This document shows, piece by piece, positions 1,861-62,792 of a stretch of 64,000 nt of DNA. A program made the translations under genes and the position numbers. This DNA comes from Clostridia bacterium (GTDB taxonomy: Bacteria; Bacillota; Clostridia; UMGS1883): positions 1 to 64,000 of the forward strand of contig JAFUOO010000017.1 in the NCBI GenBank assembly GCA_017472685.1, read 5' to 3'. The notes beneath the pieces are model-generated. The model was not told where the DNA came from, did no database searches, and saw nothing but the letters and a program-made list of their open reading frames with translations. Every line of letters begins with the position of its first letter. Within the stretch, counting starts at the first letter, position 1.

Positions 1861-1950
1861 TTGCGATATGTTGGCTGTGCCAACGCGATATATTTGCCAT
1901 GGCAAATACGATATATCCTTCGGATGCGATATGTTTTGCAACGAAAAACG
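1861..1950. repeat. Mini-hairpin array 1 (CGATAT spacers)
   Basis: Successive short palindromes are separated by an almost constant spacer: TTGGC-TGT-GCCAA (1871-1883), TTTGCC-AT-GGCAAA (1893-1906), TCC-TTC-GGA (1916-1924) and a weak TTTTGCAACGAAAA (1934-1947). Between them lie GCGATATG, CGCGATATA, ACGATATA and GCGATATG. The stems differ in sequence while the spacer is kept. The same design recurs at 62589-62792. Confidence 0.7.
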
Positions 1951-46590: not shown

Positions 46591-46784
46591 TATATATATT
46601 AAATCAATGTTTTGCGTAGCAAAACTACCGAAATTATTCATTATTCATCAGCACAGCGACTTCACTATTCACTGAAAATCCTGTTAATGAATAGTGAAGA
46701 GTGAATAATGAAGAGGAAATAGTACAAAAGAAAAAATCCTGCCGAAGTATCGACAGGATTTTCTTTTGGTGCGAGAGGCGGGAC
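46591..46784. repeat. Direct repeat, copy 1 (tRNA-Leu 3' flank)
   Basis: About 190 bp nearly identical to 47944-48137, including TTAAATCAATGTTTTGCGTA, the GTGAATAGTGAATAA-type runs and the hairpin ATCCTGCCGA/TCGACAGGAT (46735-46764). The copy ends with the last 17 bases of a tRNA-Leu 3' end (GTGCGAGAGGCGGGAC) and is then interrupted by unrelated sequence before the intact tRNA at 46979. Confidence 0.85.
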
Positions 46785-46940
46785 ACAGTCTTGCTACGCA
46801 AGCCTTGCCTGCTTATCAGCCCTCGGTTTGGCGCCGAGCTGCTGATTGCGCACCACTCGGCTACAAAACAATTCACCGGATTGTTTTGCTTAACGCCTCG
46901 TGCCCTCTTAGGGTTCAAGTCCCTTTCATGCTAAGCAAAA
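46785..46940. other. Insert between repeat copy 1 and tRNA-Leu, tRNA-like debris
   Basis: A 156-bp stretch absent from repeat copy 2. It contains GCTACGCAAGCC-type small palindromes and, on the plus strand, AGGGTTCAAGTCCCT, which is a T-arm motif in inverted orientation relative to the flanking tRNA-Leu genes. On the minus strand it includes TAGCCGAGTGG, like a Leu/Ser D-arm. No complete cloverleaf can be drawn. Probably rearranged tRNA fragments. The rest of the gene-free stretch 46510-46978 is repeat copy 1 and a terminator. Confidence 0.5.
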
Positions 46941-46941
46941 A

Positions 46942-46976
46942 AATAAAACCATACCTTTTGGTATGGTTTATTTTTT
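46942..46976 (-). terminator. Terminator of tRNA-Leu copy 1
   Basis: AAACCATACC/GGTATGGTTT stem followed on the minus strand by TATTTTTTT, directly after the tRNA 3' end. Confidence 0.82.
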
Positions 46977-46978
46977 GT

Positions 46979-47061
46979 TGGTGCGAGAGGCGGGACTTGA
47001 ACCCGCATGGTCTCCCACACGCACCTTAAACGTGCGCGTATGCCAATTCCGCCACTCTCGC
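46979..47061 (-). tRNA. tRNA-Leu (AAG), copy 1
   Basis: An 83-nt class II tRNA including an encoded CCA (46979-46981). Acceptor GCGAGAG/CTCTCGC, D-arm GCGGAATTGGCATACGC, anticodon stem CACGT/GCGTG with loop TTAAGGT (anticodon AAG, reads CUU), a long variable arm and T-arm GCGGGTTCAAGTCCCGC. Sequence identical to the copy at 48120. Leucine CTT is a visibly common codon in this window. Confidence 0.93.
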
Positions 47062-47090
47062 AAATGTATTCGTTTTTCACGACAAGAGTT

Positions 47091-47119
47091 ATTATAGCAG
47101 GGGAAAGGTGGTTTGTCAA
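47091..47119 (-). promoter_or_regulatory. Promoter of tRNA-Leu copy 1
   Basis: Perfect TTGACA (47114-47119), 17 bp, TATAAT (47091-47096). The region is duplicated with the tRNA. Confidence 0.88.
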
Positions 47120-47138
47120 TAACAAATTTTCAATTTTT

Positions 47139-47564
47139 TTAAGTTTTTTTGAGATTTAAAATCATGTTTACTTCGTGAATTCCGTTTTCATTTACGACAT
47201 CTGTTTCGATGAAACCGAGTTTTTCATAAAGGTGTTTTGCAGGAATATTTCCATATTTGTATGTTGTTGTTATCCAATTAGCACGACATTGTAATTTTAA
47301 CATACTAATAAGTTCTTTGAGAATGGCAGTTCCATAGCCTTTGTTTTGATATTCAATATCAACGGCAAAATCCCAAAGGAAATATCCACCATCACAGTTT
47401 CTGAGAAGAGCAAATGCTATAATAGTATCATCGTTATAAATATCAAAAGCAATCACAAGCTTGCATTTAAAAGCATTTGATAAGGTTTCTTCGGATGATA
47501 ATTGCGAGCGTTGAGAAGGAGATAATTCAATTTTTATACTGTTGCTTTGTTTGAATGTAAACAT
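47139..47564 (-). CDS. GNAT-family N-acetyltransferase
   Basis: A 141-residue GNAT protein: a strand pair, then FAVDIEYQNKGYGTAILKEL (acetyl-CoA pyrophosphate loop Q/R-x-x-G-x-G/A type) and KHLYEKLGFIETD near the C-terminus. The substrate is unknown. The AAAGGAAT ribosome site overlaps the end of the four-helix-bundle gene, so the two form an operon. Both lie between the two tRNA-Leu copies. Confidence 0.82.
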   Translation of the reverse strand: MFTFKQSNSIKIELSPSQRSQLSSEETLSNAFKCKLVIAFDIYNDDTIIAFALLRNCDGGYFLWDFAVDIEYQNKGYGTAILKELISMLKLQCRANWITTTYKYGNIPAKHLYEKLGFIETDVVNENGIHEVNMILNLKKT

Positions 47565-47567
47565 ATT

Positions 47568-47915
47568 CTATTCCTTTGCAGTATTGAGTGATGCTATTAA
47601 AATACGTTTGATTTCGGTGCAATCGTCAAGAAGGGAGGCACCTTCTTCGGGTTTTAATATTTCTGATTTTATAAGCACCTTTAACCAATATTCTGTTTCT
47701 GCAGTCTCTTTTAGCGCAATGTGCAATTTGGAAATGAAATCCGCTTTGCTTTGGCCATAATTAGCTTCATGGATATTGGCGCCAATACTTGTTCCGCTTC
47801 TTCCGATTTGTTTAGATATTATAGTTTCCTTTTTAGTTTTAGCAAGATAATTTTGAAGTTTGACAATTCGTGCAGCAAAATCAATGGATTTTGCAGTTAA
47901 AGCATTTTCTTTCAT
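47568..47915 (-). CDS. Four-helix-bundle protein (23S rRNA intervening-sequence family)
   Basis: A 115-residue all-helical protein with the family signature: SIDFAARIVKLQNYL, RSGTSIGANIHEANYGQSKA and DFISKLHIALKETAETEYWL. Relatives are encoded in 23S rRNA intervening sequences or as free-standing genes, often in mobile or variable loci; their biochemical role is not established. It is the first gene after a TTGATT-17-TAACAT promoter that lies at the edge of repeat copy 2. Confidence 0.9.
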   Translation of the reverse strand: MKENALTAKSIDFAARIVKLQNYLAKTKKETIISKQIGRSGTSIGANIHEANYGQSKADFISKLHIALKETAETEYWLKVLIKSEILKPEEGASLLDDCTEIKRILIASLNTAKE

Positions 47916-47931
47916 TTAAATCACCATGTTT

Positions 47932-47960
47932 ATGTTAGCATATAAAATATATTAAATCAA
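47932..47960 (-). promoter_or_regulatory. Promoter of the four-helix-bundle/GNAT pair
   Basis: TTGATT (47955-47960), a 17-bp spacer and TAACAT (47932-47937) on the minus strand. The -35 element lies in the repeat; in copy 1 the matching boxes are only 14 bp apart. Confidence 0.5.
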
Positions 47961-48137
47961 TGTTTTGCGTAGCAAAACTACCGAAATTATTCATTATTCA
48001 TCAGCATGGCGACTTCATTATTCACTGAAAATCCTGTTAATGAATAGTGAAGAGTGAATAATGAAGAGTGAATAGTACAAAAGAAAAAATCCTGCCGAAA
48101 TATCGACAGGATTTTCTTTTGGTGCGAGAGGCGGGAC
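47944..48137. repeat. Direct repeat, copy 2 (tRNA-Leu 3' flank)
   Basis: Near-identical partner of 46591-46784. Here the repeat continues without interruption into an intact tRNA-Leu, its promoter and about 60 bp beyond, so the whole unit is a duplicated tRNA locus. The hairpin at 48087-48114 is the tRNA terminator. Confidence 0.85.
48087..48114 (-). terminator. Terminator of tRNA-Leu copy 2
   Basis: AAATCCTG-x-CGA and TCG-x-CAGGATTT form a stem with one mismatch, followed on the minus strand by a TTTTTTC run. Confidence 0.78.
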
Positions 48138-48202
48138 TTGAACCCGCATGGTCTCCCACACGCACCTTAAACGTGCGCGTATGCCAATTCCGCCACTCTC
48201 GC
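48120..48202 (-). tRNA. tRNA-Leu (AAG), copy 2
   Basis: Identical 83-nt sequence to the copy at 46979, with encoded CCA at 48120-48122 and the same anticodon loop TTAAGGT. Confidence 0.93.
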
Positions 48203-48231
48203 GAATGTATTCGTTTTTCACGACAAGAGTT

Positions 48232-48260
48232 ATTATAGCAGGGAGAAACTTATTTGTCAA
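48232..48260 (-). promoter_or_regulatory. Promoter of tRNA-Leu copy 2
   Basis: TTGACA (48255-48260), 17 bp, TATAAT (48232-48237); the spacer has diverged from copy 1 while both boxes are unchanged. Confidence 0.88.
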
Positions 48261-48277
48261 TAACAAATTTTTAAATT

Positions 48278-48597
48278 TTGCAAAATTTTCAACGCATAAG
48301 GCGAGGAGGGTTGAGCCCAATATGGTTTTAATCGGCAAATTTCCAACCATAATGCACCAAAATGCTCACCTATACACAAAGTATGGGTTCAGCTTTTGGC
48401 ACACTCTGACAGAAAATTTGCACGATTAAAACTCTACGACCCTTTGCGCCGGAAAAATTGATGGATTTTTGGTGCGGAGATTGCAGATAGGCTGACGCCT
48501 TTCAAAATCGACAAGCCGAAAAGACTCAATTTTAACAATCAAAGGGCATATGGGGTTCAATTCCTCTCGCCTTACCCACAAAAGCGCAAAATAATCA
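48278..48597. repeat. ~320-bp element with imperfect terminal inverted repeats
   Basis: The left end, TAAGGCGAGGAGGGTTGAGC with CCAATATGG (48297-48325), matches the reverse complement of the right end, CATATGGGGTTCAATTCC with TCTCGCCTTA (48547-48574). Inner pairs include TTTTAATCGGCAAATTT (48326-48342) with AAATTTGCACGATTAAAA (48414-48431), and outer ATTTTGC with GCAAAAT. The RNA could fold into one long branched structure. It fills the gap between tRNA-Leu and dxs. No protein-coding frame is convincing. Confidence 0.6.
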
Positions 48598-61999: not shown

Positions 62000-62566
62000 A
62001 TGTTTTATAAAAAAGCATCATTACAAGAGATTGAAGAAATTTATAACACACATATGAAAAAGGATTTTCCCCCGGCAGAACTAAAGCCACTTAATGCCAT
62101 TAAATATTCCATGGAAAAGGGCTGGTATGTAATGTATCTTGCCTATGACGAGGGCGGTGTTAAGGGCTATGCCTGCGTTGCCGACTGTGGTGACAGTATA
62201 GGCTTTCTTGACTATTTCGCGATAGTTAAGGAATACCGCGGCACAGGTGTGGGAACAGAGTTTTTCCGCGAGCTTGACCACTTGAGCGATTTTGGGTGCA
62301 TACTGCTCGAAACAGAAAGCATCGAAAGTGCCCGGAACGAGGAGGAAGACTTCACGCGGCGCAGACGGATAGCCTTCTACAAGCGCTCGGGCTGTGTAGA
62401 CACAGGGTGCATGTATAATGTGTTCGGCGTTGAGTACAATGTTTTCATAAATAAGGATATTGAATTGACAGAGGATTTTTTGGCAAAGCTATTATCAGCC
62501 TACGAATACGCCTATGCGGCAATACTCAGGCGTGACGATAAAGATTATATATACCGTGTAAAATAA
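62000..62566 (+). CDS. GNAT-family acetyltransferase
   Basis: A 188-residue protein with a GNAT fold: IEEIYNTHMKKDFPPAELKP at the start, GYACVADCGDSIGFLDYFAI, then VKEYRGTGVGTEFFREL (acetyl-CoA loop R-G-T-G-V-G) and RIAFYKRSGCVDTGCMYNVF. The N-terminus resembles acetyltransferases acting on amino acids or antibiotics, but the substrate is unknown. A strong AGGAGG site precedes the ATG; it lies 12 nt after sbcC. Confidence 0.82.
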   Translation: MFYKKASLQEIEEIYNTHMKKDFPPAELKPLNAIKYSMEKGWYVMYLAYDEGGVKGYACVADCGDSIGFLDYFAIVKEYRGTGVGTEFFRELDHLSDFGCILLETESIESARNEEEDFTRRRRIAFYKRSGCVDTGCMYNVFGVEYNVFINKDIELTEDFLAKLLSAYEYAYAAILRRDDKDYIYRVK

Positions 62567-62588
62567 GTGCTTTTAAAGTATAATGATA

Positions 62589-62792
62589 TTCCCTGTGGGA
62601 ATGATATGGCTACGCCGTGATATGAAATTAAAATTTCATGATATGCACTTTGTGCATTATGGTAGATTTGCGATGCAAATCCTATTAATGATAAATCAAA
62701 TGAACCAAAGGTTCATATCATGTCGCAAAGCGACATATCATTACAACGTAATATCATGTGCTATGCACATATCATTTTGGAATAAATTCCAA
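62589..62792. repeat. Mini-hairpin array 2 (TGATAT / ATATCA spacers)
   Basis: Ten short palindromes, mostly with 3-nt loops: TTCCC-TGT-GGGAA, GGC-TAC-GCC, GAAATT-AA-AATTTC, GCAC-TTT-GTGC, ATTTGC-GAT-GCAAAT, TGAACC-AAA-GGTTCA, TGTCGC-AAA-GCGACA, ATTAC-AAC-GTAAT, ATGTGC-TAT-GCACAT, TTGGAAT-AA-ATTCCAA. In the left part the spacers read ATGATATG; from 62716 they read ATATCAT, the reverse complement. It fills most of the gap between the GNAT gene and the aspS promoter. Confidence 0.8.

Follow-up and report, generated by a model that had tools for sequence, protein, structure and literature searches.

Mini-hairpin arrays with constant spacers form a dispersed insertion family associated with S23-type (PF05635) genes in Clostridia

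The window, the whole stretch of 64,000 nucleotides analysed here, comes from a Clostridia bacterium. Near its end, after an ORF (62000-62566) and before a gene that starts at about 62860, lies an ORF-less element of nine hairpins: four in a left arm, one in the centre and four in a right arm. Each left hairpin is preceded by TGATAT, and each right hairpin is followed by ATATCAT. The parts of this element, and two further features of the window, are as follows.

62583..62775, + strand: the complete element, without an ORF: left arm, centre and right arm
62583..62589, + strand: left spacer 1, ATGATAT
62602-62607, 62618-62623 and 62639-62644, + strand: further left copies of TGATAT
62589..62601, + strand: left hairpin 1, TTCCC-TGT-GGGAA
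62608..62616, + strand: left hairpin 2, GGC-TAC-GCC
62624..62637, + strand: left hairpin 3, GAAAT-TAAA-ATTTC
62645..62655, + strand: left hairpin 4, GCAC-TTT-GTGC
62656..62701, + strand: centre, made of GGTA, the hairpin GATTTGC-GAT-GCAAATC (62665-62681) and a linker
62702..62714, + strand: right hairpin 1, GAACC-AAA-GGTTC
62722..62734, + strand: right hairpin 2, GTCGC-AAA-GCGAC
62741..62751, + strand: right hairpin 3, TTAC-AAC-GTAA
62758..62768, + strand: right hairpin 4, GTGC-TAT-GCAC
62715-62721, 62735-62741, 62751-62757 and 62769-62775, + strand: right spacers ATATCAT, the reverse complement of the left spacer
1865..1933 (in the stretch of about 1861-1950), + strand: second array, of a related family, with CGATAT (GCGATAT) spacers, one arm and no ORF
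47568..47915, - strand: PF05635 gene without an array beside it, encoding a protein of a sister clade; a tRNA-Leu(aag) gene stands on either side

Folded as single-stranded DNA, positions 62578-62780 form separate hairpins placed exactly between the spacers, with a minimum free energy of -36 kcal/mol against -20.6 +/- 2.95 for dinucleotide shuffles (z -5.2; none of 200 shuffles as low); the opposite strand gives z -5.5. The mini-hairpins and near-constant spacers of the initial annotation are thus there, with some corrections. It counted ten hairpins: nine belong, but the tenth, TTGGAATAAATTCCAA (62777-62792), is outside the last spacer and probably flank. The midway flip of the spacers is real, but its pivot is a composite centre (GGTAGATTTGC..GCAAATC onward) and not one unit; this centre is the slot that holds a gene in a sister copy. 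The higher-order symmetry that it saw in the array is both real and general. Within the window, runs of spacer-hairpin-spacer triplets occur only at this array and at about 1861-1950, where the second array, said to share the design, is indeed alike but has the spacer GCGATAT, in the left orientation only.

A simple tandem repeat was dropped as a candidate, as the initial annotation had also held: TRF makes no call at the array. A known RNA family was dropped as well, since an Rfam covariance-model search of the window returned only tRNAs at gathering scores and the array had no match. Among open-access papers, we found no earlier description of such an element, which together with the Rfam result fits the earlier remark that no named element has this plan. 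Two things are new: the array belongs to a dispersed insertion family, and the family is tied to PF05635 genes.

A DNA search located at least 15 further copies of the element in its own genome, and only the stretches around copies were then taken for comparison. Nearly all copies are alike: four TGATAT hairpins, a centre starting with GCATTATGGTAGATTTGC, a GAAAAATC..GATTTTTC hairpin, and right hairpins with ATATCAT. The pattern GATATN8-22GATATN8-22GATAT, with related spacers counted, has 66 matches in the 2.3 Mb genome and none in the reversed control. The copies examined sit between protein-coding or tRNA genes, not inside an rRNA gene. They lie mostly beside gene 3' ends, and many begin only a few bases from a stop codon, according to a gene-distance table that is rough: several arrays were detected in part only, and ORFs were called mechanically.

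To test for insertion, we looked up the sequences flanking 16 copies in the three other genomes of this genus (G001, G002 and G003) and compared the corresponding stretches. G001 (L169) and G003 (L170) lack the window copy at the orthologous position, and their flanking genes are collinear. Several other copies are missing in at least one relative: the L021 site is empty in G001 and G002, and the L022 site in G001. Arrays with TGAATT spacers occupy the L010 site in G002 and the L022 site in G003 (L174, L193). The reciprocal case exists too: a copy in G001 (G001:C77), 78% similar to the window copy, corresponds to an empty site in this genome. Because presence and absence at orthologous sites go both ways between species, the window copy and its relatives are insertions. 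No target-site duplication is visible in the empty/filled pairs and exact junctions cannot be placed, the relatives being too diverged for this (75-90% identical, with different intergenic DNA). Four G002 sites empty of arrays (L176, L185, L188, L194) hold another AT-rich intergenic repeat family (GCAATTAGCAATTAGTAATGAG).

The copies also allow stems to be compared. In the four hairpin slots that can be aligned, Watson-Crick pairing is 97%, 98.5%, 100% and 88%, and the cells in which both sides of the stem have changed number 6, 4, 4 and 3; column shuffles reach the observed pairing 0, 1, 6 and 0 times in 2000, on rows obtained by a regular-expression parse and with cells that are not independent events. 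In the slot of left hairpin 4 (62645..62655), A-T is replaced by C-G through paired substitution in other copies. Pairing of 88-100% despite sequence change supports selection on the hairpin structure, as suspected from the window array at the outset. The alignment of orthologous loci that had been proposed as a check on compensatory change gives a mixed picture: between L016 and L180, paired changes account for the difference in some stems (GCAC..GTGC versus GCCC..GGGC), but several others have been swapped wholesale, yet remain palindromic.

One copy of the element carries a gene. The centre of the C8 copy (L016) holds an ORF of 113 codons, which starts within the conserved ATTATGGTAGATTTG and encodes a protein of PF05635, a pentameric four-helix-bundle family (23S_rRNA_IVP/S23; 92.9 bits for a cut-off of 33.8). 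This protein matches PDB entry 2rld with 166 bits, and its PDB matches include the pentameric homologues 2gsc and 2rld. The orthologous copy in G001 (G001:C52, L180) likewise has the gene in the centre slot. At the same site, G002 (L181, G002:C77) has a collapsed remnant, a deletion that runs through the last left hairpin, so that only the four left hairpins, fused to the right end, are present. There are five PF05635 genes in this genome: three come with arrays, each array having a different spacer. In the window, the PF05635 gene listed above and an ORF at 47139-47564 are enclosed by two direct repeats within 46594-48289 (191 nt at 97%; 179 nt, with tRNA-Leu(aag), at 92%); the arrangement resembles an insertion with a duplicated tRNA at its sides.

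The association extends beyond the genus. We considered 80 Clostridia loci, drawn from genome contigs with a ten-sequence alignment and mostly from uncultured Oscillospiraceae/Clostridia of ruminants: at 64 of the 80, at least two spacer-hairpin-spacer units lie within 500 bp of the gene. Units number 10.1/kb within 200 bp upstream of the gene and 3.0/kb at 200-400 bp; on the downstream side the first 200 bp have 1.6/kb, and all other bins 0.0-0.6/kb, for a background of roughly 0.25/kb far from the gene. In a tree of 153 proteins, built on few columns and with many weak forks, the array-bearing genes fall in one clade of 105 rows (support 97; 0 of 500 shuffles), of which 80 have at least two units and 13 have one. 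An 8-row subclade inside it, including L033, has no detectable arrays. The idea that arrays accompany all PF05635 genes was rejected, since genes tested outside the clade lack them: those of other Bacillota, cyanobacteria, Bacteroidota and Treponema have practically none. A type I restriction-modification operon on a Monoglobus plasmid (NZ_OY725736.1; L237 1501-1848) has an unannotated PF05635-like frame between its S and R genes.

Gene-bearing arrays share a common plan. Exactly four left spacers are present in 27 of 33 parsed loci, and in 23 of the 33 the centre contains an inverted copy of the left end (the spacer and the 5' strand of hairpin 1), so that hairpin 1 could swap partner; the control with unit 2 gives 0/33. 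Most loci are of a type A, with the gene after the right arm, and many of these arrays come immediately after the terminator of a tRNA gene (L078, L088, L091, L096, L102, L129); in type B, the gene is between the arms (L016, L035, L077, L097, L139). Two loci, L064 and L068, have a direct copy of the left end of the element (ATGAATTGCAACCTTA; ATGAATTGCCTT) just behind the PF05635 gene, as if direct repeats bounded a gene-bearing unit; a terminal unit behind the gene was dropped as a general feature, being found at these two only. In L097 and L139, on contigs labelled Akkermansia, the hairpins of the left and right arms match within an element and differ between elements, so that the arms may be copied or pair together.

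Spacers vary from family to family and include TGATAT, TGAAAT, TGAATT, GCTAAAT, CGATAT and others. Placed on the protein tree, seven spacer classes need 10 changes, the minimum being 6 and the shuffled mean 49 (0 of 200 shuffles as low); the classes were set by a simple rule, and the CGATAT class lumps several GATAT-type spacers. Simple linkage inside one element would produce such a fit as well. The dispersed arrays follow the same line: TGATAT triplets number 20 in this genome, 8 in G001, 4 in G002 and 2 in G003, and TGAATT triplets 0, 1 (with no hairpin), 19 and 10, all reversed controls being 0. The gene with a TGATAT array is found in this genome and in G001, and the gene with a TGAATT array in G002 (L042). 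No PF05635 array gene was found in the G003 assembly, which is 73% complete. The spacer class thus follows the S23-type protein and the stock of dispersed arrays of each species. Arrays with GCGATAT spacers lie at C15, at C26 and at 1861-1950 of the window, several of them apparently one-armed; in this genome, 89% complete, no cognate PF05635 gene was identified for them.

Which molecule folds into these hairpins may be read from the loops. On the strand that runs outward from the centre, 114 of 188 loops are GNA or GNNA and 2 are TNC or TNNC; by arm, the counts are 61/90 on the left and 53/98 on the right, with 0 and 2 of the complementary pattern. More than 80% of these loops are closed by C-G. 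The bias is present, and weaker, in the window's own family (26/79, against 1). C(GNA)G and C(GNNA)G loops form unusually stable DNA mini-hairpins, the classic case being d(GCGAAGC), and the loops suggest a signature of single-stranded or extruded DNA hairpins. With the arms in inverted orientation, the preferred loops fall on the top strand of the right arm and on the bottom strand of the left arm, so that no single RNA carries both.

This bears on the first alternative, in which the array is transcribed, with the transcript serving as a leader or small RNA that the S23-type protein binds, for autoregulation or as CRISPR-like guides. A strand preference and a position directly upstream of the gene would suit such an RNA, as would the first right hairpin, often with strand-specific internal G.A/A.G pairs, tandem G.A pairs being an RNA motif too; moreover, other CRISPR-like arrays with variable units are reported to be transcribed (PMC10910872). 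Yet that preference is for opposite strands in the two arms, 3-nt loops dominate (109/186), and the 4-nt GNNA loops have no GNRA bias, their third base being a purine in 24 cases and a pyrimidine in 17. The variable units are palindromes, Rfam gives no match at gathering score, and promoter-like -35/-10 boxes, seen by eye, lie between array and gene in L085, L096, L102 and L120. The G.T and A.C mismatches, compared as a possible sign of an RNA strand, are too few to weigh either way. We consider a structured RNA unlikely. In L078, L079, L080, L085 and others, the tandem G.A/A.G mismatches of the first right hairpin are kept while the surrounding stems vary.

What can be read directly from the sequences is a set of inverted arms of about four mini-hairpins, a family-specific spacer of 6-7 nt and a centre able to hold a PF05635 gene, along with dispersal and with presence or absence between species at one site. 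It is natural to compare these with known systems. REP/REPIN elements with their RAYT (TnpA-REP) are also inverted short palindromes dispersed in intergenic DNA, with a constant unpaired tag beside each hairpin, strand-specific hairpins, non-autonomous copies and one linked gene with cognate arrays. However, their tag is GTAG/CGTC, in place of a 6-7 nt AT-rich motif that differs by family; here, an arm has up to four hairpins with freely varying stems, and the linked gene is a PF05635 gene with no HUH motif. No GTAG or CGTC tag stands at the hairpin foot, and no PF01797 match, thus no cognate Y1/HUH RAYT gene, was found in this genome (89% complete). REPIN-RAYT seems the nearest working model, and the element is not filed there because the tag and the HUH gene were looked for and not found.

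Other systems share single traits. The 23S rRNA intervening sequences of Leptospira and Coxiella, with their S23p ORF, are small selfish elements with PF05635, an optional ORF and inverted ends, but they are described as lying inside rRNA genes, with ends paired into a single long stem that RNase III cuts (PMC4990558), where we find hairpin arrays between protein or tRNA genes. Insertions in CPR rRNA genes have a PF05635 (23S_rRNA_IVP) ORF and ORF-less versions at the same sites; they target rRNA genes, and the available text of their description does not mention hairpin arrays (PMC11270868). MITEs and foldback elements are non-autonomous and intergenic, with inverted ends; here, in contrast, the ends are arrays of unlike hairpins with a short repeated motif, and neither a target-site duplication nor a parental transposase is defined. 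CRISPR and CRISPR-like arrays alternate a constant short repeat with hypervariable units, and PF05635 genes are reported in cas loci (PMC3936711, PMC10910872), but CRISPR repeats keep one orientation and have non-palindromic spacers, whereas here the repeat flips midway, the variable units are palindromic and there are dozens of dispersed copies. The Avd protein of diversity-generating retroelements, a four-helix protein reported to be related to PF05635 (PMC10053308), belongs to a system that needs a reverse transcriptase. For rRNA intervening sequences, CPR rRNA insertions, cas loci and the Avd relative, the accessible portions of the open-access literature mention no hairpin arrays with PF05635.

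We thus read the window array as probably an ORF-less, non-autonomous copy of a small mobile element served by an S23-type protein, much as REPINs are served by RAYTs. The element family is apparently undescribed and found across gut and rumen Clostridia, and the best reading may be a REPIN-RAYT-like system in which the S23-type protein replaces the HUH transposase: one gene with its cognate array, and many dispersed palindromic copies. The S23-type protein, a homopentamer elsewhere, would be the dedicated binding factor of the element. In each arm, it would recognise the spacer together with the hairpins folded from the outward-running strand; stems could vary because only the helix, the C(GNA)G-type loop and the spacer would be read. 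The protein would then synapse the arms, joining both ends of the element, which would be moved with a further nuclease or with host replication/repair, mostly into sites that closely follow a stop codon or a tRNA terminator, and ORF-less copies would be mobilised in trans. We know of no catalytic motif in PF05635, and searches for PF05635 and PF01797 identified no nuclease partner. PF05635 relatives form homopentamers, as in a structure from Xanthomonas (PMC4990558); that five subunits would face four to five spacers in each arm is no more than suggestive. Since the gene is outside the arms, right after the right arm, in many loci, it may not be inside the mobile unit. A bolder statement, that this is a new class of mobile element, whose arrays of GNA-loop ssDNA hairpins are recognised by their family-specific spacer and made to spread by a pentameric four-helix S23/IVP protein of no known nuclease fold, is tentative: we would stop just short of giving it even chances.

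Against a role of the S23-type protein in mobility, an unrelated transposase (IS200/IS605-like or RAYT HUH, or that of another IS) could move the arrays, with the S23 gene as a passenger. REP/REPIN elements are thought to move in this way (PMC8266576, PMC3116915), and the relatives G001-G003 have Y1_Tnp genes. However, no Y1_Tnp was found in this array-rich genome (89% complete), on which ground a RAYT was rejected as the mover, and the spacer class tracks both the S23 tree and the stock of each species, which is unexpected for a passenger; we hold this possibility to be slightly less likely than a structured RNA. It is quite improbable that the arrays are fixed host elements, such as nucleoid, replication or transcription-end signals, with the S23-type protein as a host factor: their intergenic place, mostly next to gene 3' ends, would fit, but they are present or absent at orthologous sites within one genus, where another spacer family has taken their place at some sites, their positions are not conserved across species, and PF05635 is patchy, in 15 of 40 genomes. 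Chance palindromes or plain tandem-repeat slippage, plausible at first sight as short palindromes are plentiful in AT-rich intergenic DNA, are refuted by the folding z of -5.2, the 66 matches against none in the reversed control and the dispersed homologous copies.

S23/IVP genes have been known for 30 years, since the early 1990s, with no function attached, and the link to the arrays may offer one. The proposal, made in 1993, that the ORF of the intervening sequences serves mobility had no substrate (PMC4990558). For one S23 clade, there is now a nucleic-acid partner that can be recognised, along with dispersed copies and a spacer code to match; the question of function can therefore be tested with a 113-residue protein and short oligonucleotides. 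If true, this would be the first function for the 23S 'intervening sequence protein'. If the reading is right, the elements would represent a class of mobile DNA that reads shape and spacer instead of fixed ends, which would give C(GNA)G DNA mini-hairpins a natural use and would explain a stock of intergenic repeats in uncultured gut Clostridia.
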